DNA from: an uncultured Gammaproteobacteria bacterium
Lineage (GTDB): Bacteria; Pseudomonadota; Gammaproteobacteria; Pseudomonadales; Pseudohongiellaceae
NCBI GenBank assembly: GCA_903837345.1
Contig: CAILUG010000059.1
Span: forward strand, 1 to 63,693
Direction of reading: 5' to 3'
DNA: 63,693 bases
Below are positions 14,891 through 63,693 of this stretch, piece after piece. Under the pieces are notes generated by a model. It saw nothing but the letters and a program-made list of their open reading frames with translations. It made no database searches and was not told the origin of the DNA. Made by a program: the position numbers and the translations under genes. Within the stretch, counting starts at the first letter, position 1. Every line of letters starts with the position of its first letter.

Positions 14891-14997
14891 GCCTCTGGCC
14901 GGCACAGTGTTCCGCGACCGCCGCGAGTACATCCCTGTAGGCTTAGTCTTCGGCATCCATGCCTCAGATGTCGCTACACACTGTGCCGGCCAGAGGC
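14891..14997 (+). repeat. Structured palindromic element, copy 1
   Basis: A 107 bp element. The outer arms 14891-14910 and 14978-14997 are perfect 20-nt inverted complements beginning GCCTCTGGCC. A further inner pairing GCGAC (14914-14918) / GTCGC (14970-14974) is possible. The interior holds CGAGTACATCCCTGTAG, in which TACA-TCCC-TGTA can form a small hairpin, then a second hairpin GGCAT-CC-ATGCC and CCTCAGA. Copy 2 (15054-15163) and copy 3 (from 63605) share this interior and the GCCT ends. It lies in the rsgA/orn gap upstream of both genes. Confidence 0.85.
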
Positions 14998-15053
14998 TTC
15001 GGACATCCAGGTGAGTTCAAAACGACTGAAAGAATTACGCGTTGAAACTGAGA

Positions 15054-15163
15054 GCCTTGGGCAGGTAAGTACTTCTGAAACCGTCGGAGGCCATGGATGG
15101 CCGGAGGCGAGCCTACAGGGATGTACTCGTGGCGTGTTTCAGAAGTACTTACCTGCCCAAGGC
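15054..15163 (-). repeat. Structured palindromic element, copy 2 (inverted orientation)
   Basis: A 110 bp element. The outer arms 15054-15081 and 15136-15163 are perfect 28-nt inverted complements. Read on the minus strand the interior runs ACGCCACGAGTACATCCC, then TGTAGG, the hairpin GGCCAT-CC-ATGGCC, and CCTCCGA. Compared with copy 1 the internal hairpin gains a C:G pair on both sides at once, and compared with copy 3 the outer arm changes T:A to G:C (TCTGAAAC/GTTTCAGA versus TCGGAAAC/GTTTCCGA). It lies 108 bp upstream of orn and in the opposite orientation to copy 1. Confidence 0.87.
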
Positions 15164-15211
15164 GGTGCACTAATCTTCATGGAACAGCCGCAACTCCGCA
15201 CCCATTTAAAG

Positions 15212-15240
15212 TTACTCCTGCCTCTCTGAAGCGTTACAAT
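15212..15240 (+). promoter_or_regulatory. Possible sigma-70 promoter of orn
   Basis: TACAAT at 15235-15240 matches the -10 consensus at five of six positions; TTACTC at 15212-15217 is a weak -35 with 17 bp spacing. Transcription would begin about 25 bp upstream of the orn ATG. This lies downstream of palindrome copy 2, so the element would not be in the orn transcript from this promoter. Weak evidence because of the poor -35. Confidence 0.3.
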
Positions 15241-15271
15241 CCCAAGCAAGCTCACAAGTGGAATTCCAGCA

Positions 15272-15826
15272 ATGGACAAAAAGCAGCACCTCATCTGGAT
15301 CGATCTGGAAATGACAGGCTTGTTGCCCGACACCGATCGCATCATCGAGATTGCCACCATTGTCACCAACACCGATCTGCAAGTGATTGCCGAAGGTCCG
15401 GTGCTGGCGGTGCATCAGTCCAAGATGGTGATGGAGGGCATGGATGACTGGAACCAGAAACATCATGGCCAGAACGGTTTGATCGAACGCGTGCGGCACA
15501 GCCCTTACAGCGAGCCGGAAGTGGAACAGATCACCATCAATTTCCTGCAGCAGTATTGTGAGCGGGGTTTTTCACCGATGTGCGGCAACAGCATTTGCCA
15601 GGACCGTCGTTTTCTCGCCCGCTACATGCCGCGGCTGGAGTCGTTCTTCCATTACCGCAACATGGATGTGAGCACACTCAAGGAGCTGGCGCGCCGCTGG
15701 CGGCCTGATCTGATGGATGCGTTGAAGAAGGAGAGCTCCCACAAGGCGCTCGAAGACATACGCGAGTCCATCAAGGAACTGCAGTACTACCGCGAACATT
15801 TCATCAAGACCAAACGACCTGCCTGA
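15272..15826 (+). CDS. orn: Oligoribonuclease
   Basis: DEDDh-type 3'-5' exonuclease that degrades short RNAs, including pGpG from c-di-GMP breakdown in Pseudomonas, which matters here given the many c-di-GMP proteins in the window. Motifs seen: IDLEMTGL (first DE), the [10 protein letters not shown] region and the C-terminal HKALEDI with His and Asp. The length of 184 residues is normal. Divergent from rsgA as in related genomes; the HPP-family gene follows 22 bp downstream on the same strand and could share its transcript. Confidence 0.96.
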
Positions 15827-15848
15827 CGGCGGCTCTGCGACTTCATCC

Positions 15849-16811
15849 ATGAAATCCTCTTCCTCCCGGGCCCACGCGCTGGCAGCGCTGTTGGGCATTG
15901 AGCTCAACGTCACCAGTCATTTCGAGAAATTCATTGCCAGTCTTGGCGCTCTGCTTGGCGTGCTGGTGGTGGCAGTGGTTTCGCTCGCGGTCAGCAGTGG
16001 CACCACGGCCGGGTTGATGACCGCGTCGATGGGGGCTTCCGCGGTGCTGTTGTTTGTGGTGCCGCACGGCGCCTTGTCGCAGCCGTGGCCGGTGGTAGGC
16101 GGGCATGTGGTGTCAGCGGCAGTGGGGGTGGCCTGCCAACAGTGGCTGCCGGCAGGCTTGCTGACACCGGCACTGGCGGTGGCCTTGTCGATAGTGCTGA
16201 TGCAATACTTGCGCTGCGTGCATCCACCCGGTGGTGCTACTGCGTTGATGGCAGTAATAAGCGGCAATGAAATTCACCGGCTGGGTTTCGGCTACGTCCT
16301 CAACCCGGTGCTGCTCAATGTGCTCAGCATGCTGGTGCTGGCCTTGCTGTTCAACAACGCATTTCCATGGCGCCGTTATCCGGCCGCCTTGATGAAACGT
16401 CATCACCATGTGCAAGCCAGCGGTCGCCTGCCGGAACAATCCGAACTGACGCAGGAAGATTTTGAAGCCGCGATGCACAAGCTCAACACCTTCGTTGATA
16501 TCAGTAGCGAGGATCTGATCGAGCTGGTGGATCTGGCCAGGGAGCATGCCGAAGAACGCCAGCCTCACCCGTATGCGATAGAGCTCGGCCGCAGCTACAG
16601 CAATGGCCGCCTGGGCCGCCACCGGAGTGTGCGGCAGATCATCGATCAGCAGCAGGGCAACAAAAAACACCAGGACAAGGTGATTTACAAGACCCTGGCC
16701 GGAGCTGGTGCGTGGGAAACAGGTATTTGCGATGCCGAGGAGTTCCGGCTATGGGCGCGTTTCGAAGTGGAATCCAGGGACGGCCGCTGGGTGAAAGTGA
16801 AGCCTCAATAA
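15849..16811 (+). CDS. HPP-family integral membrane protein
   Basis: Four or five hydrophobic segments in residues 28-180 with the family motif VHPPGGATAL at about 124-133. The C-terminal 130 residues are soluble and charged and do not look like the CBS domains often attached to HPP proteins. HPP proteins of cyanobacteria and plant chloroplasts have been linked to nitrite transport; this gene converges on a nitrate reductase unit across a terminator, so a role with nitrite or nitrogen oxyanions is a reasonable inference but unproved. It follows orn by 22 bp. Confidence 0.75.
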   Translation: MKSSSSRAHALAALLGIELNVTSHFEKFIASLGALLGVLVVAVVSLAVSSGTTAGLMTASMGASAVLLFVVPHGALSQPWPVVGGHVVSAAVGVACQQWLPAGLLTPALAVALSIVLMQYLRCVHPPGGATALMAVISGNEIHRLGFGYVLNPVLLNVLSMLVLALLFNNAFPWRRYPAALMKRHHHVQASGRLPEQSELTQEDFEAAMHKLNTFVDISSEDLIELVDLAREHAEERQPHPYAIELGRSYSNGRLGRHRSVRQIIDQQQGNKKHQDKVIYKTLAGAGAWETGICDAEEFRLWARFEVESRDGRWVKVKPQ

Positions 16812-16820
16812 AACTTTAGT

Positions 16821-16849
16821 AAAAAACTGCCCCGCCGTGAGGCGGGGCA
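16821..16849 (-). terminator. Rho-independent terminator of the nitrate reductase unit
   Basis: Stem TGCCCCGCC (16828-16836), loop GTGA, stem GGCGGGGCA (16841-16849). Read on the minus strand the hairpin is followed by a run of six T (the A run at 16821-16826), so it terminates the leftward nitrate reductase transcript. It lies just after the HPP gene stop and may also act weakly rightward. Confidence 0.8.
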
Positions 16850-16955
16850 CAAGAGGGGGATGCGACCCGAAGCGTGTAACAACAATTATTTTCCCCTGTG
16901 GGAATAATTAACGTCGTGTTGCACCAAAGCTTGAGAGGTTAATCCGCGTTTTTGC

Positions 16956-18896
16956 TCAATGATTGAGCCTGACCACCCCAACCTGGGGCATCGCTGCCAA
17001 CCCGATATCGCGGGCGTGCTGCTCAAATCCCTTGTTTTTCCAGAAGAAGGCGCCTGGCATCGTGGTGGGAACCACCAGCACGTAGAACAGCGCACGCCCC
17101 ACCACACTGGTGCAGAACAGGCTTGTCAGCAGCACCGCCGCCACGCCCACCCCGATCAATGCAGTGTTGGCCAGCAGCATTACCGCAATGGCCAGAATCA
17201 GGTTGAGGCCGAGGCTGGCATTGCGGGCAATATAAGTCTTGCCGAAGGTGGTGGTCTGTATGTAATGGGAGGCAGCGCCTTCGTGCTCCTTGTCGGTCAT
17301 GTCTGTCGCATGCGCACGCAGGCCAATCGCATGCAGGAACTGGCCCAGCAGGATGCCGGCGGCGGCCACGATCAGCAACGTTGAATAGTCCGCACCCTGC
17401 ACCAGCGCCATCGTCACTGTTGCAATGCCTACCAGGGCTGAACCCAGTGCCAGTGCATGGCCGCCAAAATCAGTCGCCACCTGCCAGTGGTTCCAGAACG
17501 GCCGTGCTTTGATGCGGTAGCAGCGGTACATGTAATAGAGACCACCAGCAGCACCGAGCACGGCCGTCACGCCGAAGCCTGTGGCGAAGGCGGATAGCGC
17601 ACTCGTCGCCAACGGTCTCACATCCCAACCCAACACACTCTGCGCCACACTCTGGAACAGCGTATTGGCCGGTAATGAACACAGGATATGCAGCCCGAGC
17701 ATGCCAATGAAGATGGTGATGCCAAGTCCTTCGCGGCACACCGGCGAATAGCGCAGATTGTTGAAGCCGCGATAGAAGCGGAATGGTTTGCCCAGATGGG
17801 TGGTGCTCAGGAACATGCCGAACGACACCATCGCAAAGCTGACGATGCACAGCAGTGCATAGGCAGGAGACGCATGCAGATCCTGCAGAAACTTCACACC
17901 CAGCAGCTGACCGCCGAAGGCCAGTGCAAACGCACCGATAGCGGCTTGTGTCAGCAGCGTGAACAACACCAGCGGATTTTCACGCGAACTCAATTTGTTG
18001 ATGTGCCAGTAGCGCACCTTGCCGTCTTTCGGGTCGACCGTGGGCTGGTAATTGCCTTTCTCGTCCTTGTGGTATTTCACCGGCATCGAGTCGGTGCGGG
18101 TCACTTCTTCCGGCAGGTTTTTGGTCTGCTGGAAGCGGATGTTGGGATGAGTAATTGAAGGATCCGGGAAGCCGGGGATGCTGATCTTGGCTTCTTCGCG
18201 GTTTTCGGGAATGTTCTCGATCACGCCGAAGTCGAGAGCGTTGCCAAGACAGGCTGACACACACGCGGGTTTGAGGCCCACTTCCAGGCGGTCCACACAC
18301 ATGTTGCATTTGGATACCTGGCCTTTGATCGGATCCAGCTGCGGCGCGTTGTAAGGGCACACCCAAGTGCAGTAACCACAGCCGAAACAGGTTTCCGGAT
18401 CCTGCAGTACGGCGCCATATTCAGTGTGCTTGGTATAGGCATTGGTGGGGCAGCCTTTCATGCACACCGGGTCATCACAGTGGTTGCAGGCCATTGAGAT
18501 GTTCATGCGCTTGTAATCGGGATAGCAGCCGCCTTCGACATAGCCCACCGAGCGGAACGCGATATGGCCAGGGTTGTCGTTCTTTTCCGAACACGCAGCC
18601 TCGCACGCGTGACAACCGATGCAGTTGTCGGCAGTGAAAAAGAAGCCATGCTGCTTGTTGCGATTGGGATTGGTGCCCACTTCCGGATTGCCGTTGATGT
18701 AGAGCGGCTGGCCTTCGGCCCACTGCGGATTGATTTCACGCAGATTGATTTTCAGGCCATAGCGGTTTTCCGATTGACTCTCGGGATCATTCAGGAACGC
18801 ATAGGGGCGCTCCTCGGGACGAACTTCCCACAAGGTGCTGGGCTTGGGTTCTGTCTTGGGTTGCTCGGCGGGATCGAACTCGACTACTTGATTCAT
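16956..18896 (-). CDS. Fused DmsB-type iron-sulfur / DmsC-type membrane subunit of nitrate reductase
   Basis: Residues about 80-230 carry four ferredoxin-type Cys groups in the DmsB order: CIGCHACEAAC, CNHCDDPVCMKGCP, CFGCGYCTWVCP, and CNMC...CVSAC. From about residue 300 there are eight hydrophobic segments like the DmsC quinol-oxidising anchor. DmsB and DmsC are normally separate proteins. It starts 15 bp after the molybdenum subunit, so it should pass electrons from membrane quinol to that subunit. Neither subunit has a Tat signal, so the active site is expected in the cytoplasm, consistent with assimilation rather than periplasmic respiration. Confidence 0.85.
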   Translation of the reverse strand: MNQVVEFDPAEQPKTEPKPSTLWEVRPEERPYAFLNDPESQSENRYGLKINLREINPQWAEGQPLYINGNPEVGTNPNRNKQHGFFFTADNCIGCHACEAACSEKNDNPGHIAFRSVGYVEGGCYPDYKRMNISMACNHCDDPVCMKGCPTNAYTKHTEYGAVLQDPETCFGCGYCTWVCPYNAPQLDPIKGQVSKCNMCVDRLEVGLKPACVSACLGNALDFGVIENIPENREEAKISIPGFPDPSITHPNIRFQQTKNLPEEVTRTDSMPVKYHKDEKGNYQPTVDPKDGKVRYWHINKLSSRENPLVLFTLLTQAAIGAFALAFGGQLLGVKFLQDLHASPAYALLCIVSFAMVSFGMFLSTTHLGKPFRFYRGFNNLRYSPVCREGLGITIFIGMLGLHILCSLPANTLFQSVAQSVLGWDVRPLATSALSAFATGFGVTAVLGAAGGLYYMYRCYRIKARPFWNHWQVATDFGGHALALGSALVGIATVTMALVQGADYSTLLIVAAAGILLGQFLHAIGLRAHATDMTDKEHEGAASHYIQTTTFGKTYIARNASLGLNLILAIAVMLLANTALIGVGVAAVLLTSLFCTSVVGRALFYVLVVPTTMPGAFFWKNKGFEQHARDIGLAAMPQVGVVRLNH

Positions 18897-18911
18897 GACT
18901 GCTGCAACTTC

Positions 18912-21101
18912 CTAATATTTGCGACGTTCCAGATTGAGCTGGGCGGCTTCGGTCTGGTCCACATGTTCTATTTTTACGCAGCACTGCTTGAAAGCCGGCT
19001 GACGCGAATAGGGATCAAGCAAGCCGAGCGTTAGACGGTTGACGCAATCGTGGTAGTGGAAAGGAATGAATACCATGTTGGGTGGCACGCGCTGGGTGAG
19101 CTGCACCATCACCACGGCGTCGCCGCGTTTGGACACCACGCGCACATATTGCTGATGCACAAAGCCGAGTTTTTTGGCGGCATCCGGATTCATTTCCATA
19201 AACGGGGTCGGGCTGAACTTGTTGCCGTTGGCGATCTTGCCGGTGCGCGTGCGAGTGTGGAAATGTTCCACCAGCCGGCCGCTGTTGAGCCAGAACGGGA
19301 ATTCCTGGTCGGGCTTTTCGTTGTTGTCCTTGAACTTCACCACAATCAGGTTGGCGCGGCCGTTGCCGGTCGGGAACTTGCCATCGCCATACAGTCGCGG
19401 CTCGCCCTTGAGTCCTTCGGTGCCTTCGCGGAACGGCCACTGGATGCCGCGTGCGGCTTCAATCTTGTCGTAGGTCATACCACTGATGTCGAGGGTACGA
19501 TCAGCGCCTTTCGACAACACCTTCATTTCTTCAAACACCTCTTCCGGCTTCTGCGGGAATCTTATTTTCTGGCCATTGGGAAACCGTTTGGCCATTTCAT
19601 TGAAGATCCAGAAATCCGGTTTGGAATTGCCGAGCGGTTTCACCGCATTGCGCGTCAGATTGACGCGGCGTTCGGTGTTGGTATGGCAGCCTTCTTTCTC
19701 GGCCCACACGGCGGCCGGAAAATAGGCATGCGAGAACTGGTTGGTTTCCACATCAACATAGCAATCCTGCACCACCAGAAAATCGAGCTTCTCCATCATC
19801 TTGCGGATGCGGCCGGTGTTGGCCATGGAGGTCATCGGGTTGGTGGCCACCAGCCACATGCCCTTGATCGCGCCGCTTTCGATGGCCGGGAAGATGTCGG
19901 TCTGTGCCAGACCGCGCGATTTGGGGAAGAACTCGGGATCGATGCCCCAGAAGTCGGCAATTTCCTGGCGATGTTGTTCATTCTCGAGTGTGCGGTAACC
20001 CGGCAAGCCGGAACAGGACGACCATTCACGCGTGCCCATCGCATTGCACTGGCCGGTGATCGACAAGCTGGTGCCACCGGGTTTGCCGATATTGCCGGTG
20101 CAGAGGTTGAGATTGTTGATATTGCAGACCCCATCGGAACCGTGCGTGCTCTGGTTGATGCCCATGGTCCAGATGCACATTGCAGCCGGAGCCTTGGCAT
20201 ACAGGCGTGCCACCTGGCGTATCGTGTCTTCATCAATGCCACAGATATGCTGGGCCTTGACCGGGTCGTAGTCCTGCACGTTCTGGTACAGCTCTTCATA
20301 GTTGTTGGTGTGAGCGGCGATATAGCCCTTGTCTTGCAGGTTCTCCCTGAAGATCACATACAGCATCGCATTCAGCAGCACTACATCAGTCCCGGGCGTG
20401 ATCGGCAGATGGATGTCGGCAAACTGCGCGAACATGGTGACGCGCGGATCAATCACTATTAGCGGGAACTTGCGTTTTTCCCGCGCTTCTTTCAGGCGCC
20501 AGTAGATCACCGGATGTTGCTCCGGCAGGTTGGAGCCGAACGCCATCATGCAATGGGTGTGTTCGAAATCGTCGTAGCAGCCGGGCGGACCATCAAGCCC
20601 GAACGAGCGTTTGTAGCCCGAGACCGCCGAGGCCATGCACAGCGTGGTGTTGCCATCGTAATTGTTGGTGCCTATGCAGCCGCGGGTCAGTTTGCCGAGT
20701 GTGTAGAATTCTTCAGTGAGCAACTGGCCGGTGGAAACAATCGCAAAGGAATCCCGCCCGTATTTCTGCTGGATGCGTTTGATGTTGGCGGCGGTGTAGT
20801 CGAGCGCTGCATCCCAACTGACATTCTGGAATTCTTCCTGATAGCGGTTGCGGATCATCGGCTCGGTGCCGCGACCGGCCGAGGTGAACAGTTCATGTTC
20901 CTGCAAACCCTTGATGCACAGCTTGCCGCGGTTCACATCAGCGCCGGCATGACCGCGACTGGTGATCACAGCACCCTTGTCGTCAAGCCCCAGCTCTATC
21001 GAACAACCGGTTGAACAATAATTGCATACTGAATACTTCCACTCCTTTACTTGCTTGGGTGGAATTACGATGGGTTTTCTGTCGGTGCGGCCGAATAACA
21101 T
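18912..21101 (-). CDS. Molybdopterin nitrate reductase catalytic subunit (assimilatory, NarB/NapA clade)
   Basis: Mo-bisMGD oxidoreductase reducing nitrate to nitrite. With the ATG at 21101, the N-terminal 4Fe-4S ligands are Cys26, Cys29, Cys33 and Cys62 (CNYCSTGC ... GKLCIKG), and the Mo ligand is Cys155 in TTLCMASAVSGYKRSFG, which is typical of assimilatory and periplasmic nitrate reductases. 729 residues, with no C-terminal [2Fe-2S] extension and no Tat signal. The ATG has GGAG eight bases upstream; a GTG at 21122 is less likely because the predicted transcript starts near 21134. Divergent from nirB. Confidence 0.88.
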   Translation of the reverse strand: MLFGRTDRKPIVIPPKQVKEWKYSVCNYCSTGCSIELGLDDKGAVITSRGHAGADVNRGKLCIKGLQEHELFTSAGRGTEPMIRNRYQEEFQNVSWDAALDYTAANIKRIQQKYGRDSFAIVSTGQLLTEEFYTLGKLTRGCIGTNNYDGNTTLCMASAVSGYKRSFGLDGPPGCYDDFEHTHCMMAFGSNLPEQHPVIYWRLKEAREKRKFPLIVIDPRVTMFAQFADIHLPITPGTDVVLLNAMLYVIFRENLQDKGYIAAHTNNYEELYQNVQDYDPVKAQHICGIDEDTIRQVARLYAKAPAAMCIWTMGINQSTHGSDGVCNINNLNLCTGNIGKPGGTSLSITGQCNAMGTREWSSCSGLPGYRTLENEQHRQEIADFWGIDPEFFPKSRGLAQTDIFPAIESGAIKGMWLVATNPMTSMANTGRIRKMMEKLDFLVVQDCYVDVETNQFSHAYFPAAVWAEKEGCHTNTERRVNLTRNAVKPLGNSKPDFWIFNEMAKRFPNGQKIRFPQKPEEVFEEMKVLSKGADRTLDISGMTYDKIEAARGIQWPFREGTEGLKGEPRLYGDGKFPTGNGRANLIVVKFKDNNEKPDQEFPFWLNSGRLVEHFHTRTRTGKIANGNKFSPTPFMEMNPDAAKKLGFVHQQYVRVVSKRGDAVVMVQLTQRVPPNMVFIPFHYHDCVNRLTLGLLDPYSRQPAFKQCCVKIEHVDQTEAAQLNLERRKY

Positions 21102-21144
21102 GCAGACTCCGTGCGGAAACACAAATCACGCGCGAGAAAGTAGC

Positions 21145-21161
21145 TGCACGAATCACGCCAA
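21145..21161 (-). promoter_or_regulatory. Sigma-54 promoter of the nitrate reductase unit
   Basis: On the minus strand TTGGCGTGATTCGTGCA has the invariant GG and GC exactly ten bases apart and agrees with the -24/-12 consensus at 14 of 17 positions. Predicted start near 21134, giving a leader of about 33 nt to the ATG at 21101. It mirrors the second sigma-54 site driving nirB in the same gap. Confidence 0.65.
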
Positions 21162-21190
21162 TTCGGAGTCACGTTTTTGCTTGGGAAAAG

Positions 21191-21207
21191 CGCACTCAAA
21201 GGATGCG
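21191..21207. promoter_or_regulatory. NtrC-like activator site
   Basis: CGCACTCAAAGGATGCG fits the dyad TGCACT-N5-GGTGCA at nine of twelve half-site positions. It lies between the two sigma-54 promoters. Further partial half sites occur nearby (CGCACCAA at 21211-21218 and TTGGTGCG at 21251-21258). Binding by NtrC or another enhancer protein is inferred. Confidence 0.4.
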
Positions 21208-21341
21208 GAACGCACCAAAACTTCACATGTTGCAGAATGAGGGTGTCAACTTGGTGCGATGGTGTCGCGCACTTGCGCCATTGCGATGAACAAAGCCCAG
21301 CAAAGCCAAGGGCAAGGTTCCAAAAGCAGACAGGTGTGGTG

Positions 21342-21358
21342 TTGGCATCGACTTTGCT
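21342..21358 (+). promoter_or_regulatory. Sigma-54 promoter of nirB-nirD-narK
   Basis: TTGGCATCGACTTTGCT matches the -24/-12 consensus at 15 of 17 positions with GG-N10-GC spacing. Predicted start near 21369, which leaves about 29 nt of leader before the ATG at 21398 and rules against the GTG at 21368 as the nirB start codon. Confidence 0.72.
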
Positions 21359-21397
21359 CTGTGCACTGTGAACATCCTGAATACCAAACCAGTAACC

Positions 21398-24283: not shown

Positions 24284-24332
24284 AAAGAAATTGGTGTCGC
24301 CTATGAATCTCGAATGAGCCAGGTGCGGCGAG

Positions 24333-24376
24333 CCGGTCGCGCCAGGTAGGAGCGGCAGCGACGGATGCGCGACCGG
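24333..24376 (+). repeat. Inverted repeat between nirD and narK
   Basis: Nine-base arms CCGGTCGCG (24333-24341) and CGCGACCGG (24368-24376) enclose 26 nt. No T run follows, so it is more likely an RNA-stabilising or processing hairpin that sets nirD and narK expression apart than a full terminator. It sits 78 bp before the narK ATG. Confidence 0.4.
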
Positions 24377-24454
24377 GGAGCGCAAGCACTTGGCGGCAGC
24401 GCTGAACCAATAGCAACCAATTTATCAAACCAATGCATTTACCAGGAATATTTC

Positions 24455-25921: not shown

Positions 25922-25927
25922 GCCGCC

Positions 25928-28231: not shown

Positions 28232-28238
28232 AAATATT

Positions 28239-52241: not shown

Positions 52242-52359
52242 TTGCTGTTGTCGTGGCTGGAGCCGGGTCAGGGAAAAAATCATCAATCAGGGCTGGCACT
52301 GAATTTACTCCGCTGTGGCCAGCACAGCGACCCGGATCTTGCTGTCTTTGCCGGGCGCA

Positions 52360-53682: not shown

Positions 53683-53687
53683 TAGAA

Positions 53688-55115: not shown

Positions 55116-56212
55116 GACGGCAACTCCGCGAGGATTTGGCGTGCCAACATGCAGCGTGGATGGTCATCCCGGGCTGCGAGCGCTTGCAGGTGCGCAACAT
55201 CGCCCAGATCGCGCAAGGCCATGGCAGCCTGCCGGGCCACCCAGGAATTCTTGTCATCCAGGGCTTTGCGAAACAGCGGCACGTCCGACTGCACTGCCAT
55301 TGCCCGCAAGGTACGCAGTGCAGTTATCTTCAATACTTCATCCGGAGAGTTGCACAACATGCGTATTGAATCAGTATGGCGACCCTGGCTGATATGGCCG
55401 AGCAGGTGCATGGTTGCCACCAGGACGTCGCGGTTGGTATCACTGCCCAGCACCAGCATTGCGGAATTCAGGGCTGAATAGGCATTGCAGCGCCCGAGCG
55501 CTTCGGCTATCACCACGCGTGTACGTGCAGGTTGGCGGACATCCAGATAGAAATTGATCATCATCGGGATGGCCTTGGGGCCGGAACGCACCAGCAAGTC
55601 GGCCAGCGCGTGGATGTTCCATTTGTTGAAGCGGTGAATCTGTTCAATGACCGGCACCACGAACCGCGTGCGCTGATGCGAGAGCAAGGTGCTGGCGGCA
55701 AACATTGCCACTGCCGGCGAGCGATCGGTCAGCAGGGCGGCGATGGCGTCTTCTTTTGCCGGCATGCCAAACAGGCCGAGAATGTTGATGGCCCAGATCC
55801 GGACCCCGGGGCTTTTGTGTTGCAGACGTTGCTCGACATGCGACAGATGCGGCTGAGCCAATTGCGAGAGGATGTCGAGATCGCTGCCGCGCAAACGATA
55901 GGCGAAAGGCGCCAGAAAACGGATGAAATCCAGTTGCTGTCCTGATTCCACCAGCATCCTGAAATCGTCGATGTCCCTGTCGCCGCTCAACACGTCCAGA
56001 ATGTCCTTGTCCCATTTGCTGTTCAGCATCTGCCAATAACGTTCGCGACGATTGAACTGCAGTCGCAGGATGATCGCCATCAACGCGAAAATTATCGTCA
56101 TCAGCGTCAGCAAGAGGATGGAGTCAGTCAGCATCAGCAAGACCCAATGCTGTGGCAACGCGGGATTGAATGCCCCGAAGTGTTCCAGCCAGCTTCTGAC
56201 GGGGTCTTTCAT
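55112..56212 (-). CDS. Membrane-anchored HEAT-repeat protein
   Basis: An N-terminal transmembrane helix (about 23-48, LLMLTDSILLLTLMTIIFALMAI), then a cytoplasmic region of HEAT/armadillo-like repeats from about residue 110 to the end (for example KSPGVRIWAINILGLFG, SPDEVLKITALRTLRAMA, SWVARQAAMALRDLG). No catalytic motif. The repeats should form a protein-binding scaffold that links the upstream response regulator to the synthase. Four-base overlap with the GT2 gene and a five-base gap to the response regulator. Confidence 0.85.
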   Translation of the reverse strand: MKDPVRSWLEHFGAFNPALPQHWVLLMLTDSILLLTLMTIIFALMAIILRLQFNRRERYWQMLNSKWDKDILDVLSGDRDIDDFRMLVESGQQLDFIRFLAPFAYRLRGSDLDILSQLAQPHLSHVEQRLQHKSPGVRIWAINILGLFGMPAKEDAIAALLTDRSPAVAMFAASTLLSHQRTRFVVPVIEQIHRFNKWNIHALADLLVRSGPKAIPMMINFYLDVRQPARTRVVIAEALGRCNAYSALNSAMLVLGSDTNRDVLVATMHLLGHISQGRHTDSIRMLCNSPDEVLKITALRTLRAMAVQSDVPLFRKALDDKNSWVARQAAMALRDLGDVAHLQALAARDDHPRCMLARQILAELPS

Positions 56213-56217
56213 GCCTG

Positions 56218-57300
56218 TTATCCGAGCCTGAACTGGTTCTTGACCTTGGCCAGCAGCTCGACTGGCGAAAAGGGTTTCAGCATATAGTCATTGGCGCCCA
56301 GATCGTAGCCGCGCACCACATCCTTTTCGCTGCCCAGCGCAGTGAGCATGATTACCGGGAATTCGGATTTGCTGCGTGTAGCCCGGACTCGTGTCAGCAC
56401 TTCGAAACCGTCCATCGCCGGCATCTTTACATCCAGTATCAACATGGAAAATTGTTGCTTGCCAAGTGCTTCGAGTGCGGAAACGCCATTGTTGACGTGG
56501 GCGACTTTGAAACCTTCGCGGCTCAAGCGATGCCTGATCACGCCGACCAGCAGATCGTCATCTTCGGCCACCAGGATCGGGAGCAGATCCTCCATGCTGA
56601 CTGCCTTGGCCTGGGCTGCGGTTTCAACTTTCGCAGCCGGAACCTGCGAGGGGGATTTGAGCTCTTCGGCAATGACAGTAGCGATTTGTTCAGGGTTGAA
56701 AGGTTTGGTGATGAACTGTTTGGCACCCAGCGCCAGACATTCATCACGAATCTCGGACTTGTTCACGCCCGACAGCACGAAGATGGCAGTGTCGCGCTGA
56801 GGTGAATCATGAATCTGCTGCAGGATGCGACGACCATCGGTATCCGGCAACAACAGGTCAAGCACAATGAGTGCAAACCTGCGGGCGGCCAGCAACTGGC
56901 CGGCTTCAGCACCATTGGCAGCGACTACCACCTGATGGTCAGGACATTTCTGCCCAAGCAGAGCGGTGAGCAAGCGGGTGATATCGGTATCGTCGTCGAT
57001 GATAAGGATGGCAGGGCGTGCAACCGGCAAGTCGCTTTGGGCAGCCGCCATCAATACCCTGATCAGATTGGCCAGTTGCTTGAGCAGTTCATCCGGCGCG
57101 GCATGTTCCACTGCTTTGGCGGCAGTGCTGATTTCCGGATAGCCAAACGTTGAGCCGGAGCCATGCAAGGTGTGGGCAATGTGGCGCAGGCGCTCGCTGG
57201 TGTCAGCCTTGCCGGCACGGATGTCCTGCAGCAATATCTTGATGGTGCTGATTTTTTCAGGCAGGGTCTGCTGATATTGTGCTTTCAGTTCTTCAAACAT
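56218..57300 (-). CDS. Hpt-REC-REC response regulator
   Basis: A 360-residue protein: Hpt domain at the N-terminus (His43 in AHTLHGSGSTFGY), REC1 (about 100-215: IIDDDTD, LIVLDLLLPDTDG, VLSGVN, ITKPFN) and REC2 (about 240-360: VAEDDD, LILDVKMPAMDG, IMLTALG, MLKPFS). Both phospho-Asp positions are intact. With both an Hpt and two receivers it can act as the relay hub between the upstream kinase and the membrane synthase genes. Sixteen bases after the kinase gene and five bases before HEAT. Confidence 0.9.
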   Translation of the reverse strand: MFEELKAQYQQTLPEKISTIKILLQDIRAGKADTSERLRHIAHTLHGSGSTFGYPEISTAAKAVEHAAPDELLKQLANLIRVLMAAAQSDLPVARPAILIIDDDTDITRLLTALLGQKCPDHQVVVAANGAEAGQLLAARRFALIVLDLLLPDTDGRRILQQIHDSPQRDTAIFVLSGVNKSEIRDECLALGAKQFITKPFNPEQIATVIAEELKSPSQVPAAKVETAAQAKAVSMEDLLPILVAEDDDLLVGVIRHRLSREGFKVAHVNNGVSALEALGKQQFSMLILDVKMPAMDGFEVLTRVRATRSKSEFPVIMLTALGSEKDVVRGYDLGANDYMLKPFSPVELLAKVKNQFRLG

Positions 57301-57315
57301 TATTACATGTTGGCA

Positions 57316-59004
57316 TCAGCTGTCTGACAGTGACAGATAGAAGAAAAACAAGGTGCCATCCCGGGTGGTGGAGGTGAAATCGAGCCGGCTCTGGTGCTCT
57401 GCCAGGATTTTCTGGCAAATATACAGGCCGAGTCCGCTGCCGCCTTTGGCGCGGGTGGCGGTGGAGTCGCGCTGGAAAAATTTGGTGAACAGTTTCTGGC
57501 GATCGCTGTCAGGGATCACTTCGCCGAAATTGTGCACACTGAGCTTGGCGCGGCCTCCGCTCTGCTCAAGACTGATGGTGACTGCAGAATCCGGGTGGGA
57601 AAACTTGATGGCGTTGGCAAGGATGTTGGTAAGCACCTGGAAAATACGATCGGGATCGATGGTGGCAATACAGGGAGTTTCCGGCAGATTGCTGACAAGC
57701 TTCAGATTGGTGTGAATAGCCAGGGATTCATTGGCTGCTACCACTTGCCGGATCAGCTTGCAGAGATCGTGCTTCCCAAAGCGGTAGTCCATGCGGCCGG
57801 ATTCCAGCTTCTCGACATCCAGAATGTCGTTGACCAGCATGTGCAGGCGGTTGGTGTTGGACAGCGCCATTTGCAGCAGATCTTCACTTTTTTCCGCATC
57901 ATCATCCATGATGCCGCTGGCGAGCAGGGCCAGGCTGCCTTTGATCGAAGTGACTGGTGTGCGCAGTTCATGACTGACGATGGAAATGAATTCCTGTTTG
58001 ATGCGCTCGTTCTCCAGTCGTTGGGTGACATTCTGTACCAGCGAAATCACCGCGATCACCTTGCCGTCGGCTTCGATCAGCGGCGTATTGAGCCATTCGC
58101 ATTGCAGCAGCGCGCCATTTTTGCAGCGATTTTCAAGAATCACCTGCTCGCTTGCGCGCTTGTTGAAAATGCTGGTCCACAGGTTGTCGAGCGCCGACTG
58201 GGACCGGGTGGAGGCAAGCAGGGTGGTCAGCTTCTGCCCTTCAGCTTCTGCGCGCGAGTAACCAAACATCTGTTCGGCGGCCGGGTTCCATTTCACAATT
58301 TCTGCCAGCGGGTTCAGCTCCAGCGCAGCCAGTGGCGTATCCTGGAAATACAGTGCCAGCCGCTGCTGGAAATTCTGCAGGTCCTGTTCGCGTTTGCGTG
58401 CTTCCAGCGTGAGCACGATATTGTGTTGGATATTGCGGCAGATGCGCACCGAACTCAGTGCCAGCATCACCAGCGCCACCGGCACCATCCAGATTGCATA
58501 CAAGCCCCTGAAGCCGTGCATCAACAGCAGTGACCCGGTCAAAGGTGTCAGCAGCAATAGCAGAAACAGGAGCACAAGATCAGTGCTGGGCGCCATCGTG
58601 GTAATTGCAAACGAGGCAATGCACACCAGCATCAGTGCCAGTACCAGCTGGTAGAGACTGTTGTCATACACGAACAGCAGGAAGCCGGAGCTGCCGACGA
58701 CTCCGGCCAGTACCAGACTGCCGATGCGGAACTGGTGGAACCAGACCTCGCAGGTGTCAGGACCGGGGTTGATTTGCCTGAACCTGCGGTAGTGCAGGTA
58801 GCGGCCCAGGGTCGTCACCAGCATCAGCATTATCCAGGGGTAAAGCCGCCAGGGACTGACCACATCCTTGTACATGAATACGGCCAGCAGGCAGCCAATG
58901 ACATTGGCAATGACACTGTTGGGAATGGCATTGAACAGCAGGTTGACCTGCTCGTTGAGCAACAAGGCCTTGTTGTCAGGATTTGCCCGCACACTTGTCT
59001 CCAT
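57316..59004 (-). CDS. Membrane histidine kinase with MASE-like sensor and PAS domain
   Basis: A 562-residue kinase: five or six hydrophobic segments (about 28-190), a PAS domain (about 210-325), the phosphoacceptor helix with IVSHELRTPVTSIKG, and the ATPase domain with TNILANAIKFSH and GGSGLGLYICQKIL. No receiver is attached, so phosphate passes to the Hpt-REC-REC protein encoded next. The ATG at 59004 is used; a GTG at 59013 is possible. First gene of the five-gene minus-strand operon, 128 bp from the divergent kinase gene. Confidence 0.88.
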   Translation of the reverse strand: METSVRANPDNKALLLNEQVNLLFNAIPNSVIANVIGCLLAVFMYKDVVSPWRLYPWIMLMLVTTLGRYLHYRRFRQINPGPDTCEVWFHQFRIGSLVLAGVVGSSGFLLFVYDNSLYQLVLALMLVCIASFAITTMAPSTDLVLLFLLLLLTPLTGSLLLMHGFRGLYAIWMVPVALVMLALSSVRICRNIQHNIVLTLEARKREQDLQNFQQRLALYFQDTPLAALELNPLAEIVKWNPAAEQMFGYSRAEAEGQKLTTLLASTRSQSALDNLWTSIFNKRASEQVILENRCKNGALLQCEWLNTPLIEADGKVIAVISLVQNVTQRLENERIKQEFISIVSHELRTPVTSIKGSLALLASGIMDDDAEKSEDLLQMALSNTNRLHMLVNDILDVEKLESGRMDYRFGKHDLCKLIRQVVAANESLAIHTNLKLVSNLPETPCIATIDPDRIFQVLTNILANAIKFSHPDSAVTISLEQSGGRAKLSVHNFGEVIPDSDRQKLFTKFFQRDSTATRAKGGSGLGLYICQKILAEHQSRLDFTSTTRDGTLFFFYLSLSDS

Positions 59005-59132
59005 ACACACCACAGCCTGCCATCATCACAATGACATGGCAGGCCCTGGGTGTGACTGCATTCTGACACAGCGTGCCAGAGAGGAGGAAATCTGTATTAC
59101 ACTTGGGCATCAGCAATACCTGCGGTTCGTAC

Positions 59133-61925
59133 ATGCCCCTGGATGACAAAGTGACCCGGCAATCAGCGCCCTTGCCGCCCAATGAGGCGGCGAGAATCAA
59201 GGCGTTGCAACAATTGGTCATTCTGGATACGCCGCCGGAGCAGCAGTTTGACGATATTGTGCAACTGGCTGCCGCCATTACCGGTTGTCCAATCGCGCTG
59301 GTGTCGCTGGTTGACACGAGCAGGCAGTGGTTCAAGGCCAAATGCGGGCTGGATGCCACAGAAACCGATCGTGGAATCGCTTTTTGCGCCCATGCCATAT
59401 TGGGGAAAGAACTGTTTGAGGTTTGCGACGCCAGCAGCGACCCCCGTTTCTCAGCCAATCCGCTGGTTACCGGTACCCTCAGCATCCGGTTCTATGCAGG
59501 CATGCCGCTGCTGTCGAAACAGGGCTTTGCCTATGGCACGCTCTGCGTCATCGATACCAAGCCCGGCCGACTCAATGATTTCCAGCGCCAGGCCATGGAA
59601 CGGCTGGCCCGGCAGGTGGTCTGGTGCATGGAGGCGCGCCTGCAGCATGAACAGGATGCAGGCGTATCAAAATCGCTGACCAGTCTGCTTGAATTTCTGC
59701 CCGACGGGCTCATCACCACCGATATTGAGGGCAATATCAAACATGTGAATTCCATTGCCCGCCGCTGGCATGGCATTGATCCGGCCACCATCAACCGGCA
59801 GGAGTGGCCACTTTACTTTGAACTGTTTGACCAGAGTGGCAAGCAGCGGCTGGCTCTGGCCGACACGCCTCTCACCAGGGTACTGCGTGGCGAGCAGGTA
59901 AAGGACCAGGAGCTGATCATTCGCAGCAAAGGCCAGCCCGAACGTCTGATGCTGTGCAATGCGGATTATCTGCGTGATTCGCAGGGGCGGCGCACTGGCG
60001 CGGTGGTGGTGATGAGGGACATCACCGCCAACCGGGATGCCTCGCGCAGCATAGCCGACAAGAACCGACGGCTTTCCGTGATACTCGAAGGCACCCGTGC
60101 CGGCACCTGGGAGTGCAACCTGCAGACCGGCGCCATGGAACTGAATGACCGCTGGGCCGATATCATCGGCTACCGGCTGGATGAATTATCGACCTTGAAT
60201 GTGGAGATGCTGGAGCGCTGGGTGCATCCCGATGATCTCGCCATGTGCCGGGAAGCCTTGCAGCAGCATTTGCGCGGAGAACTGCCGCTGTACGATGTCA
60301 CCATGCGCATGCGGCACAAGCACGGCCACTATGTGTGGGTGCACGACCTTGGCCGGGTGTTCGAATGGGGGCCGACGGGTCAGGCCCTGAAGATTGCGGG
60401 AACCCGGCTCGACATCAGTGCGATGAAACAGCGTGATGCGGAAGTGGCCAGTGCCCGCAACTATCTGCAGGAAATCATCAATGCAGCCGAAGAAGTTTCG
60501 ATCATTGCCACCGACGCCCAGGGCCTGATCACGTTGTTCAACTCCGGGGCGGAACGCATGCTGGGCTATTCCGCGAAGGATATGGTGGGCAAACAGACCC
60601 CGGCCATTTTCCATTTGCCGAAGCAGGTCGAACAGCGCGCCAAGGAGCTGAGCAGCCAGTACGACCGCAACATCAACGGTTTCGATACCTTTGTGCATGA
60701 AGTCAGGACTGGCGGCACTGATACCCGTCAATGGACCTATGTCTGCCGCGATGGCTCCCTCAAGCAGGTGAGGTTGTCGGTAAGTGCACTGCATGAAGGG
60801 CAGGGCAAGTTGATCGGCTTCCTGGGCATGTCGATGGATCTCACCCGCCAGCTGGAGGCGGAAGAATCGGCGCGTGTGAGCATTGAGCGGTTTGAGCGGG
60901 CATTTGCTGCCGCTGCACAGGGCATGGCACTGCTGTCGGTAACCGGCCACTGGATCGATGTCAATGACGCGCTGTGCCAGATGTTCGGCTATACACGCGA
61001 AGAGCTGCTGAAGATCGACCTTGACCAGCTCACCTATCCCGATGATCTCAACAAGGATCTGCAACTGGTGCGCCAGACCCTGGATGGCGCCATCAGCCAC
61101 TATCAAATGGAAAAACGCTATATCGACAGCGATGGCGCCCTCATTCACGGCATCCTGTCGGTATCGCTGGTGCGCGACAGTCGCGGCTGGCCCATGCATT
61201 TCGTACTGCAGATCCAGGACATCAGCGCCCTCAAGCACATGGAAACACTGAAGGATGAATTCGTCTCCACGGTTAGCCATGAATTGCGTACGCCATTGAC
61301 GTCAATTTCCGGGGCTCTGGGCCTGGTCTGTGGCGGCGTGCTGGGTGAAGTGCCGGAATCGATGCAGGAGATGCTGTCAGTGGCCAGCAACAATGCCTTG
61401 CGCCTGTCGGCACTGATCAATGATTTGCTCGACATGGAAAAACTGGTTGCCGGCAAAATGAATTTCAGTTTCCACGAAGTGGATTTGACAGCATTGCTGG
61501 ATGAAGCGCTGATCACCATGGAAAGCTATGCAGCACCGCTGGCCATCACGATACGCCGGGTCGGCACCGCCCCGGCCCGCATCAGTGTGGACCCCATGCG
61601 GCTTGGGCAGGTATTGAGCAATCTGCTGTCGAATGCCTGCAAATTCTCGCCGAAAGGTGCCGAGGTCAAGCTGGAACACAAACTTGTCGATAATATGGTG
61701 GAAGTCAGCGTAATAGACCAGGGCTCGGGCATTCCCGAGTCGTTCCGTGCGCGCATTTTCCAGAAATTTTCGCAGGCCGATGCCAGTACCGGACGCAGCA
61801 AAGGCGGCACCGGGCTCGGGCTGGTTATTTGCAAGGAGCTGATTGAACGCATGCACGGCGAAATCGGTTACGAATCATTTGAAGGCCAGGGCACACGCTT
61901 CTGGTTCAGACTGCCAGTGTTGTAG
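59133..61925 (+). CDS. Soluble GAF-multi-PAS histidine kinase
   Basis: About 930 residues, no membrane helices. A GAF domain (about 20-165: LDTPPEQQFDDIVQLAA, RQWFKAKCGLD, YAGMPL), then four PAS domains (roughly 185-300, 315-435, 445-570, 580-700), the phosphoacceptor helix with TVSHELRTPLTSISG and the ATPase domain with NLLSNACKFS, DQGSGIP and GGTGLGLVICKEL. It probably senses several cytoplasmic signals. ATG at 59133 is chosen since the GTG at 59073 would add unrelated residues. Divergent from the polysaccharide operon; a REC gene follows 37 bp later. Confidence 0.87.
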   Translation: MPLDDKVTRQSAPLPPNEAARIKALQQLVILDTPPEQQFDDIVQLAAAITGCPIALVSLVDTSRQWFKAKCGLDATETDRGIAFCAHAILGKELFEVCDASSDPRFSANPLVTGTLSIRFYAGMPLLSKQGFAYGTLCVIDTKPGRLNDFQRQAMERLARQVVWCMEARLQHEQDAGVSKSLTSLLEFLPDGLITTDIEGNIKHVNSIARRWHGIDPATINRQEWPLYFELFDQSGKQRLALADTPLTRVLRGEQVKDQELIIRSKGQPERLMLCNADYLRDSQGRRTGAVVVMRDITANRDASRSIADKNRRLSVILEGTRAGTWECNLQTGAMELNDRWADIIGYRLDELSTLNVEMLERWVHPDDLAMCREALQQHLRGELPLYDVTMRMRHKHGHYVWVHDLGRVFEWGPTGQALKIAGTRLDISAMKQRDAEVASARNYLQEIINAAEEVSIIATDAQGLITLFNSGAERMLGYSAKDMVGKQTPAIFHLPKQVEQRAKELSSQYDRNINGFDTFVHEVRTGGTDTRQWTYVCRDGSLKQVRLSVSALHEGQGKLIGFLGMSMDLTRQLEAEESARVSIERFERAFAAAAQGMALLSVTGHWIDVNDALCQMFGYTREELLKIDLDQLTYPDDLNKDLQLVRQTLDGAISHYQMEKRYIDSDGALIHGILSVSLVRDSRGWPMHFVLQIQDISALKHMETLKDEFVSTVSHELRTPLTSISGALGLVCGGVLGEVPESMQEMLSVASNNALRLSALINDLLDMEKLVAGKMNFSFHEVDLTALLDEALITMESYAAPLAITIRRVGTAPARISVDPMRLGQVLSNLLSNACKFSPKGAEVKLEHKLVDNMVEVSVIDQGSGIPESFRARIFQKFSQADASTGRSKGGTGLGLVICKELIERMHGEIGYESFEGQGTRFWFRLPVL

Positions 61926-61962
61926 GGCCGGAGTACGGCCGCTTTGCCAGGAGAAACCGACC

Positions 61963-62361
61963 ATGACTGAATTGAAACGGGTGCTGCACGTGGAAGACGA
62001 TCCTTCCATCAGGATGGTGGCAGGCATTGCACTGGAAAAAGTCGGCAATCTGGAAGTGCTCAGCTGTGAAAGCGGCCAGATGGCTCTGGAAAAAGCAGTC
62101 GCTTTTGATCCGCAGGTTTTGTTGCTGGATGTAATGATGCCGCAGATGGATGGCCCGGCCACCCTCAAGCAACTGCGGGAAATCCTCGACGTCGACAGCA
62201 AACTGGTGCTGTTCATGACCGCCAAGGTGCAACAAAAGGAAATCGATGAATACCTCGGCATCGGTGCCTTCGGCGTGATCATCAAACCGTTCGATCCGAT
62301 GACATTGGCGCGCCAGATCCAGGAACACTGGAAGAATTTCCAGCAGAGTCGCGCTGGCTGA
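61963..62361 (+). CDS. Single-domain response regulator
   Basis: A 132-residue REC-only protein: VEDDPS acidic pair, phospho-Asp in LLLDVMMPQMDG, switch Thr in LFMTAKV and conserved Lys in IIKPFDP. ATG 61963 has CAGGAG nine bases upstream; the frame is open further but upstream residues belong to the kinase region. It is the obvious partner of the preceding GAF-PAS kinase and may pass phosphate on to the Hpt-REC-REC protein. Confidence 0.93.
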   Translation: MTELKRVLHVEDDPSIRMVAGIALEKVGNLEVLSCESGQMALEKAVAFDPQVLLLDVMMPQMDGPATLKQLREILDVDSKLVLFMTAKVQQKEIDEYLGIGAFGVIIKPFDPMTLARQIQEHWKNFQQSRAG

Positions 62362-62398
62362 CGCTTTCCATCGATACCCGTTCAATCTCCGGACAGGC

Positions 62399-63472
62399 TC
62401 AGTCAGCCCAGCTGCGATCCGTAATGCGTTCCAGCAGGGTGAGCCCCACCTGCGATTGTTGCGCCCACTTGTATTTCACATGCTGCAGGAATTTTGAATT
62501 CCACGAACGGTGGATTTCATTGCGATCCTGCCAGTAGAGCACGAATTCCTTCACCTGCGCTTCGGCAAAATCGGCATCGATGTTGGCCATTGCCAATACA
62601 TCGAAACAGGCAGGATCCGGTTTGAAATCGCGCGGGATCGGCCTCGGAGTGTTGTCGCTTTCCAGCGCATGGGTATAGCGCTCCCACTGGCGGCGCACAT
62701 GCGCAATGAAACGGCTGTTCCATTCGCTGCCGCTGGTGCCCTTTTCACGCCAGTACAACACAAACTCCGGCACGGCTTCTTCAATGAAGCCGAGGCTGAT
62801 GCCGCCATGCTCGAGTATGCTGACGGCGTCGTCGCTGGGTTTCCAGTCCGCAGGCATGGTTGATTCGAGCACGCGTGTGTTCTGCAGACTGCGCTGCTTT
62901 TCCCAGCCGCTCACTACCCAGTTGAGAAAGGTGTGGTGCCATGAATACTGGCTCTTGCCGCGATCACGGTGATAAAGGATGAAGGCTGGCAGTTCACGTT
63001 CGACATAGTCGCGCGGAATATTGCGCTGGGAGCATTGGTCGAACAGTGCGGCATCCGGCTGCCAATTGGCCGGGATCGGCGCGGCAACACCGCTTTTGCT
63101 GGACACCGGCGAGTTGATGACAGCGGTACGCGCCTTGGTATCACGTGCAGACTTGGCCTTGCCGTTATGCTGCTGATTGATTGCCAGCAAGCAGGTATCG
63201 CCTTTGCCTGCCACCGGCTCGCTCAGCAACAAACCAAGATCCTGCAGGCTAAGCTGCACGCGTTTGATGTCTGGCAGGGTCCAGAATGGCAGCGCAGCAA
63301 TCAACGCTTCATCAGTCAGTTCGGCGTAGTGGCGCTTGTCCTTGATCACGGCGGGGTGCTGCAACAGCAATTCACTGACCACATGCAACAGCACTGCTTC
63401 CTCGAGGCCAATGGTGGCGGCAAGAGTTGGCGAGATAAGCAGCGGTCGTTCTGGAATGAGGGAGGTGGTCAT
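62399..63472 (-). CDS. Protein with three DnaT-like ssDNA-binding domains
   Basis: A 357-residue protein. Residues 1-100 resemble the N-terminal part of DnaT-like proteins. Three tandem copies of the DnaT C-terminal domain follow, at about 135-195, 208-266 and 284-346, each with the pattern P-x-(D/N)-(W/F)-(Q/K)-P near its start and a FI/VLYxRD...SxWxxxFLxxV core (FILYHRDRGKSQYSWHHTFL, FVLYWREKGTSGSEWNSRF, FVLYWQDRNEIHRSWNSKFL). DnaT helps load the replicative helicase; a single protein with three such domains suggests cooperative ssDNA binding. Start ATG at 63472. Confidence 0.85.
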   Translation of the reverse strand: MTTSLIPERPLLISPTLAATIGLEEAVLLHVVSELLLQHPAVIKDKRHYAELTDEALIAALPFWTLPDIKRVQLSLQDLGLLLSEPVAGKGDTCLLAINQQHNGKAKSARDTKARTAVINSPVSSKSGVAAPIPANWQPDAALFDQCSQRNIPRDYVERELPAFILYHRDRGKSQYSWHHTFLNWVVSGWEKQRSLQNTRVLESTMPADWKPSDDAVSILEHGGISLGFIEEAVPEFVLYWREKGTSGSEWNSRFIAHVRRQWERYTHALESDNTPRPIPRDFKPDPACFDVLAMANIDADFAEAQVKEFVLYWQDRNEIHRSWNSKFLQHVKYKWAQQSQVGLTLLERITDRSWAD

Positions 63473-63604
63473 GGTTGTGCGGCTGGCTGGTCGGACTGGG
63501 ATTCTATACTGCCTTTGCGTTCCCGGCGTGAGCTCGTCAGCAAATTTCTTTTGATAAGTTTATTGACCTTCTTTGAAGTTTCAAAATTTTTGCCTCAGTG
63601 CGCA

Positions 63605-63693
63605 GCCTTGGGCCGAGAGACGCTTCGGAAACACGCTCCGAGTACATCCCTGTAGCTTGTCTTCGGCCGTCCATGGCCTCAGACAGTTTCCGA
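63605..63693 (+). repeat. Structured palindromic element, copy 3 (cut by the window end)
   Basis: The left arm (63605-63632) begins GCCTTGGGC and ends TCGGAAAC, and the matching right arm starts GTTTCCGA at 63686 and runs off the window. The interior reads ACGCTCCGAGTACATCCC, TGTAG, then the hairpin GGCC-GTCC-ATGGCC, CCTCAGA. It shares the interior with copies 1 and 2 and the 28-nt arm length with copy 2, with compensated arm changes. It lies 133 bp upstream of the DnaT-like gene start. Confidence 0.8.

Follow-up and report, generated by a model that had tools for sequence, protein, structure and literature searches.

The palindromes in contig CAILUG010000059.1 of an uncultured gammaproteobacterium of the family Pseudohongiellaceae (GenBank assembly GCA_903837345.1; positions 1 to 63,693, the whole stretch of DNA analysed, hereafter the window) are copies of a widespread small mobile element related to YPAL of Yersinia. 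One strand of this element is kept foldable into a three-way junction that presents two A-N-GGA-N loops, and at four loci copies present in this genome are absent from the same site in relatives. Regarding these data, the chances seem somewhat better than even (about 0.57) that it is a YPAL-like non-autonomous mobile element whose RNA, transcribed from the strand that bears the GGA loops (the GGA strand), would bind CsrA/RsmA. As a YPAL-type repeat the element is ordinary; its strand-specific dual CsrA-type module, found across Gammaproteobacteria, is unusual.

Copies in the window and their fold

The first-pass annotation of this DNA had reported three palindromic copies with a shared core. 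The core CGAGTACATCCCTGTAG (17 bases) is found exactly at 14924-14940 (+), 15113-15129 (-) and 63639-63655 (+), and none of 100 shuffles of the window reached three matches even at up to three mismatches. The arms of copy 2 (15054-15081 and 15136-15163, 28 nt) are 100% complementary, and those of copy 1 (14891-14918 and 14970-14997, 28 nt) are 89% complementary with the outermost 20 perfect, so the perfect stems of 28 and 20 nt given in the annotation are as described. The paired changes that it had pointed out, T:A to G:C between copies 2 and 3 and an extra inner C:G pair between copies 1 and 2, are also present in the sequence. Copies 1 and 2 form a single pair of 273 nt spanning the outer arms, and the region 14880-15175 folded as DNA has a z score of -10.2 against its own shuffles. 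Copy 3 has the core and a model match, and the contig end at 63693 cuts its 3' arm (on the core strand), which is visible only in part. The features are listed below, with scores from the covariance model R1 presented afterwards.

14890..14998, GGA strand on -: copy 1, R1 82.9 bits, outer-stem subfamily GCCTCTGGCCGGCACAGTGT
14931..14936, -: copy 1, hairpin 1 loop AGGGAU (A-N-GGA-N) on the stem UAC/GUA; A..GGA conserved, N variable
14955..14960, -: copy 1, hairpin 2 loop AUGGAU on the stem GGC/GCC, with a GA/GA internal loop beneath
14999..15052, no strand: pair centre, 54 nt between the copies, holding GAATTACGC, which recurs next to other copies (by eye)
15053..15164, GGA strand on +: copy 2, R1 124.7 bits, outer-stem subfamily GCCTTGGGC...GAAAC, 28 bp perfect
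15093..15098, +: copy 2, hairpin 2 loop AUGGAU
15117..15122, +: copy 2, hairpin 1 loop AGGGAU, within UACAGGGAUGU
63604..63693, GGA strand on -: copy 3, R1 74.8 bits over model positions 22-112, truncated by the contig end
13841..14857, -: rsgA (ribosome GTPase; gene name inferred), left neighbour, reading away; Pfam RsgA_GTPase 4.3e-50
15272..15826, +: orn (oligoribonuclease-type exonuclease; gene name inferred), right neighbour, reading away; Pfam RNase_T 3.4e-31

Each copy, a unit of about 110 nt, forms a three-way junction on the GGA strand, with an outer stem of about 29 pairs and two small hairpins. Hairpin 1 consists of GCC, UAC, the hexaloop, GUA, a five-base bulge and GGC, while hairpin 2 is built of a stem, a GA/GA or GGA/GGA internal loop, GGCC and the hexaloop. 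Among the 31 copies used for the model the internal loop is GA/GA in 15, GGA/GGA in 13 and neither in three; window copies 1 and 3 carry GA/GA and copy 2 carries GGA/GGA. In most copies of the B type the tandem-GA stem is fully paired (by eye). Since the first-pass annotation described the UCC strand, the two GGA loops of the other strand were not mentioned in it.

A consensus computed with RNAalifold from 55 copies was poor, in our view through misalignment of subfamilies whose outer stems are unrelated, and a smaller set was therefore chosen for R1. This set holds 31 copies, 28 of the 55 plus three of type D, and the structure was named from one copy. The excluded copies were 24 of the B type, C48_5467, C57_87365 (with an odd hairpin 2) and C56_37455 (outer stem partly broken); the rearranged C1_38219 had been dropped earlier. 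In the 31 copies 97.0% of the cells are paired and 31 of the 43 pairs show double changes. As such a selection favours pairing, the count was repeated on 65 copies of the same genome, including the dropped kinds (48 stretches, taken at a threshold that excludes opposite-strand shadows and with them the weakest copies). Pairing remained at 95.5% of cells and 37 of 43 pairs were doubly changed, with a covariation score of 0.471 against at most 0.102 for slid partners and no score as high in 500 shuffles. Copies from elsewhere behave in the same way: 95.2% paired, double changes in 39 of 43 pairs and a score of 0.874 (slid, at most 0.146) in 37 copies from relatives, and 94.3%, 41 of 43 and 0.841 (slid, at most 0.141) in 109 copies from 77 of the 80 loci listed for titled genomes (genomes named here by their record titles). 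The alignments of 37, 109 and 65 copies were fitted to R1 and hence lean towards it. Hairpin 1 also covaries, from UAC/GUA to CCC/GGG. All of this supports the selection on structure that had been proposed from the three window copies.

Copies across the genome

The genome comprises 3.26 Mb in 63 contigs. A search with the core pattern at up to two mismatches gave 77 places, compared with 6 when the pattern was reversed as a control. Chance matches to the core at C1_31573, C34_46120, C52_6444 and C57_84794, four in all, were removed before copies were counted. The core had been called invariant, which does not extend to the genome: GTACGTCCCTGTAG is the form seen most often (40 of the 77 places), GAGTACATCCCTGTA has seven exact copies, and a further class carries CCCATCCCTGGG.

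The genome-wide covariance search recommended in the annotation returned 102 matches at E <=0.001, or 79 once 23 opposite-strand shadows were removed. These come from the best 150 of 1286 first-look candidates, and the weakest of the 79 may be chance; at least three truncated copies at contig ends (C35, C46 and C56) are not included. Close pairs, with neighbours less than 250 nt apart, account for 36 of the 79 matches, and all 18 pairs have the identical head-to-head order with the structured strand outward on both sides. The gaps within pairs fall into two classes, 44-58 and 85-89 nt. Moreover, contig ends are no more than 300 nt away from 18 of the 79 matches (63604-63693 in the window and 17 more). 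Contigs often stop within a copy or next to one, which indicates that the assembly was broken at the repeat.

Some copies are rearranged. At C10:10.2-10.6 kb (about 2180-2660 of locus L287) a B-type copy appears by eye to be nested in the stem of another palindrome, AGCCTCTGGCGC...GCGCCAGTGGCT; such nesting would account for the longer class of spacings, and it suggests palindromes as targets of the elements. The relative G007 keeps an apparent remnant arm of this nested copy. Another B-type copy, at C10:12.26-12.46 kb (about 4260-4460 of L287), is interrupted in hairpin 2 by about 95 nt with a dyad of its own. In C1_38219 (L018) and C12_36783 (L066) the outer arms look swapped: one stem is unpaired, and one of its arms matches the other copy. 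Rearrangement between copies, or a misassembly, could account for this; an intact version of the stem is present in G007 (L111).

Spread among Gammaproteobacteria

The annotation's suggestion that similar palindromes may occur in other gammaproteobacteria proved right in relatives, in a sample of the class and in titled genomes. R1 matches were found in at least 56 of 95 genomes (this one and its relatives) and at least 18 of 44 genera when the best 40 candidates per genome were scored, and in at least 35 of 185 genomes sampled from the class, this one included, with the best 20 scored. A pattern scan of titled genomes gave at least 117 stretches at 80 loci or more. Xanthomonas, Stenotrophomonas, Marinobacter, Halopseudomonas, Microbulbifer, Rheinheimera, Alteromonas, Oceanisphaera and Sodalis, together with others, are among the matches listed. 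Neighbouring copies point outward in 26 of 33 cases among the titled-genome matches listed (six inward, one tandem) and in six of six cases in relatives. The window pair had no match at E <=0.001 in plasmid and phage records. No R1 match is seen among the best 40 candidates of G003, a congeneric genome that is nearly complete, although most of its congeners have many; it is a natural element-free comparison.

Mobility and insertion sites

A comparison of loci with and without copies, as the annotation had advised, supports a mobile element. Copies 1 and 2 lie in an rsgA-orn spacer of 414 nt. Of 55 other genomes with an orn match, 18 relatives were examined at this site; their spacers are 25-226 nt long (106 and 104 nt in the two closest relatives), and none contains a model match (0/18). 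Three more loci are filled here and empty in relatives, making four in total: C61 3.88-4.15 kb (intact pair here, empty in G007 and G004), C10 17.7-17.95 kb (intact pair here, empty in G007) and C10 12.1-12.4 kb (a copy with a split partner here, empty in G007, G004 and G009). At two further loci G007 retains only one member of the pair. A target duplication of the YPAL type (3-26 bp) was sought, and it is not readable because the flanks at empty sites have diverged, with identities of only about 74-90%.

Of the 47 outer neighbours lying up to 130 nt from the core, 35 are genes that end at the element, according to gene calls from a simple codon score. Transcription running past such a gene would produce the UCC strand of the adjacent copy and, where there is a pair, the GGA strand of the more distant one.

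Gene-sized inserts bracketed by distant copies are present at C24:44149-44932 and C56:2-1522. They contain an HNH-like open reading frame (ORF; by eye, with no Pfam match), an antitoxin-like ORF (Pfam Unstab_antitox) and unknown ORFs, and about 250 nt that are 75% identical lead into the right-hand copies. These intervals were considered as candidates for an autonomous element and rejected, as the antitoxin-like match was the only Pfam match, in one of four proteins.

Strand bias and the two loops

Pairs outside the Watson-Crick rules are mostly G.T on the GGA strand, and less often A.C. In the 31 model copies the G.T:A.C ratio on this strand is 26:6 without one ambiguous pair and 38:6 including it. 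The outer stems of the 55 copies give 48:3, many of these being one inherited B-type pair, and the 65 own copies give 101:18, or 44:18 without two pairs that hold 57. In copies from relatives the ratio is 32:12, and in the 109 titled-genome copies 206:51, where 27 pairs lean to G.T and 7 to A.C. Related copies are not independent, and p-values for these strand counts serve only as a guide. The annotation had offered a structured RNA and a protein-binding cruciform among its readings. The former remains a live reading. A purely DNA cruciform, whose function would treat both strands alike, does not explain why G.T should outnumber A.C on one of them.

Both hairpin loops read A-N-GGA-N on the strand opposite the CGAGTACATCCCTGTAG core. 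Across the 109 copies (non-gap rows), the fixed positions of the hairpin 2 loop are A in 99/99, G in 109/109, G in 109/109 and A in 106/108, with all four bases occurring at each N position. The pattern used to collect titled-genome copies left the hairpin 2 letters free; because R1 itself favours GGA, it may overlook loops that are strongly altered. The two loops are spaced by 23 nt in 74 of the 84 measurable rows among the 109, and by 24 nt in the window copies.

These features resemble the binding sites of CsrA. Systematic evolution of ligands by exponential enrichment (SELEX) gave the consensus RUACARGGAUGU for CsrA, found mostly in loops of six bases with pairing of AC to GU. Two sites can be bridged by CsrA when 10-63 nt separate them, with an optimum above 18 (PMC7652899). 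Hairpin 1 of the window copies is CUACAGGGAUGUAC, and UACAGGGAUGU of copy 2 fits the consensus save its first R. The pair of A-N-GGA-N hexaloops also falls inside the bridging range. Furthermore, CsrA is encoded in this genome, and among genomes at least 90% complete it is present in 26 of 26 that bear the element versus 35 of 42 without a listed match (Fisher p 0.038). The GGA-strand RNA would thus offer two predicted sites of the CsrA/RsmA type, and the element may be a mobile one that taps into a global regulatory circuit.

Proposed function and alternatives

In the mechanism proposed from these sequence features, the element would insert between genes, often just past stop codons and often as a head-to-head pair. 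Its GGA strand could be transcribed by read-through or antisense transcription, and both loops of the resulting RNA might be bound by one CsrA/RsmA dimer. The bound RNA may then serve as a sponge that takes up CsrA at dispersed sites, or it may mark the 3' end of an mRNA in cis and affect its decay. In a pair, transcription from either side would meet one GGA-oriented copy. The pair geometry fits a GGA module offered to both sides, and it also fits a hairpin that merely protects mRNA. If CsrA does bind, a mobile element could rewire or titrate a global regulator through copy number alone. We would go further only tentatively, with a version that we find possible and rather doubtful: a selfish element that spreads with a dual CsrA-binding RNA module, whose dozens of copies could make a distributed, insertion-tunable sponge across Gammaproteobacteria. 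Within a head-to-head pair, the GGA loops and the complementary UCC loops on one transcript could mask each other by loop-loop contacts, and the sponge would depend on where transcription ends.

Several observations weigh against CsrA binding or against parts of this mechanism. Over all distances only 39 of 64 neighbour genes end at the element (p 0.10, not significant), and the window pair itself sits between divergent genes. The gene usually runs in the same direction as the UCC strand of the copy nearest its stop codon (35 of 47 up to 130 nt away), so its mRNA first carries the complement of the CsrA sites, which favours an mRNA-protecting hairpin. The strand-bias counts rest on related, non-independent copies, and G.T is tolerated in single-stranded DNA hairpins too, which means that the bias is no proof of RNA. 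The minimum-energy fold often favours an alternative pairing of hairpin 1 that partly covers its GGA (by eye). When all 80 genomes of any completeness are taken, CsrA is found in 31/34 versus 38/46 (p 0.34) and the contrast is gone. Regarding Rfam, copies 1 (26.5 bits) and 2 (27.4 bits) do not reach the cut-off of 43 bits of TwoAYGGAY (RF01731), an RNA with predicted CsrA binding, and neither do 18 of 18 titled loci tested; Ysr224 (RF02770), a small RNA family related to the core, is annotated on the UCC strand. Finally, one relative's locus looks like a copy lost rather than never present; given the apparent remnant arm in G007 (by eye), loss is as likely as gain there.

The closest alternative is that the element is a YPAL-type mobile hairpin that only protects or terminates the upstream mRNA, its GGA loops being shared ancestral sequence and not CsrA sites. 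We consider this somewhat unlikely, though it agrees with the 35 of 47 near neighbours that end at the element, with outer stems whose 29 pairs stay paired in 94-98% of cells while their sequence varies freely, and with the influence on upstream transcript stability suggested for YPAL (PMC2229807). Protection does not need conserved loops, yet A and GGA are kept in both while the N positions vary, and it is the strand antisense to the nearest gene that is marked by G.T pairs. As for termination, no promoter or terminator consensus and no intrinsic terminator (a stem followed by a T run) was found in 14700-15400.

An improbable alternative is a single-stranded DNA substrate whose hairpins would be recognition sites of a mobilising enzyme, as in REP/IS200-IS605 or attC. 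A strand-specific fold that tolerates G.T, the filled and empty sites and the regular paired arrangement would all fit it, and it leaves unexplained why variation falls precisely on the N positions of the CsrA rule. The REP-type tyrosine transposase that the annotation had proposed to look for is not seen: the Y1_Tnp (RAYT) profile has no match in the genome at E <=0.001, where a region absent from the assembly is possible, and matches in 5 of 14 named genomes in a control search. No transposase or other enzyme was recognised in the two gene-sized intervals between distant copies at C24 and C56 either. The annotation's suggestion of a non-autonomous mobile element thus stands on the four filled and empty loci, and its REP-like part is not supported, given the absent Y1_Tnp, the unit of about 110 nt and the lack of a visible tag. 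Very improbable, in our view, are neutral palindromes kept perfect by template switching (quasi-palindrome correction) with no selection on structure. Outer stems of unrelated sequence are indeed near-perfect with few G.T intermediates (206 of 4498 cells in the 109 copies). However, template switching treats both strands alike and does not predict the G.T excess in those same copies, and alone it would not hold two hexaloops constant across many genera. A YPAL-like mobile element with a CsrA-binding GGA-strand RNA is the explanation that we prefer.

Comparison with known systems

REP (repetitive extragenic palindromic) sequences and REPINs share with the element that they are palindromic, intergenic, often in inverted pairs and mobile. 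REPs measure 20-40 bp (PMC3733652), whereas the unit of the element is much larger, has an internal three-way junction and comes with no Y1_Tnp match in the genome. A GTAG or CGTC tag was not seen by eye at the palindrome foot; GTAG is present within the core (CTGTAG).

CsrB/CsrC and RsmX/Y/Z are dedicated small RNA genes with several to many sites. These sponges repeat GGA hairpin loops within one RNA (PMC7652899). Repeated GGA in hairpin loops is thus a shared trait; in contrast, the element is a dispersed repeat with two sites per copy.

No Rfam family matches the window at curated cut-offs. TwoAYGGAY is the top-scoring, full-length Rfam match to both complete window copies, on the GGA strand, and its cut-off is passed by one of 12 relatives' loci (45.0 versus 43 bits). 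It has in common with the element two hairpins with GGA hexaloops, a tandem GA in one stem and an outer stem. The prediction of CsrA binding and the tandem GA are described in PMC4333381, and the family is listed from human gut, gammaproteobacteria and Clostridiales (PMC2864571). No mention of mobility was found in the texts consulted on TwoAYGGAY.

YPAL, or RU-2, is a miniature insertion of Yersinia of 167-168 bp. RU-2 is equated with YPAL in PMC2759123, and as printed there (Table 1b) it has two CANGGANG hairpins, which follow the order seen in the element and are spaced by 24 nt; as it contains both hairpins, the family can be called YPAL-like. YPAL is dispersed and intergenic, with filled and empty sites (PMC2229807), and has been described from Yersinia and Erwinia, with three matches in E. 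coli (PMC2229807, PMC2759123, PMC2847712). Compared with YPAL, the element differs in its outer stem and flanks, its units of about 110 nt are often in divergent pairs, and it occurs in many more gammaproteobacterial genera. According to the work of De Gregorio in 2006, YPAL is said to insert just downstream of stop codons.

By eye, the Ysr224 consensus is the reverse complement of the YPAL core. A Sodalis copy passes the Ysr224 model on the UCC strand (82.9 bits, cut-off 70), and the window has no match to it at E <=10. Several copies with differing expression are described in Y. ruckeri (PMC12112432). If CsrA binds the element, small RNA entries like Ysr224 would need to be reinterpreted as pieces of a repeat.

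The core letters were not found in the literature searched. Neither was YPAL together with CsrA, most subscription papers being outside that search, and in the one paper found with both 'miniature inverted-repeat' and CsrA the two are mentioned in unrelated passages. Three things catalogued apart are joined here, namely the YPAL repeat, the Rfam small RNA Ysr224 and the predicted CsrA-binding RNA TwoAYGGAY. To the core, already known in Yersinia, this analysis adds the connection with TwoAYGGAY and CsrA as well as the broad distribution of the element.

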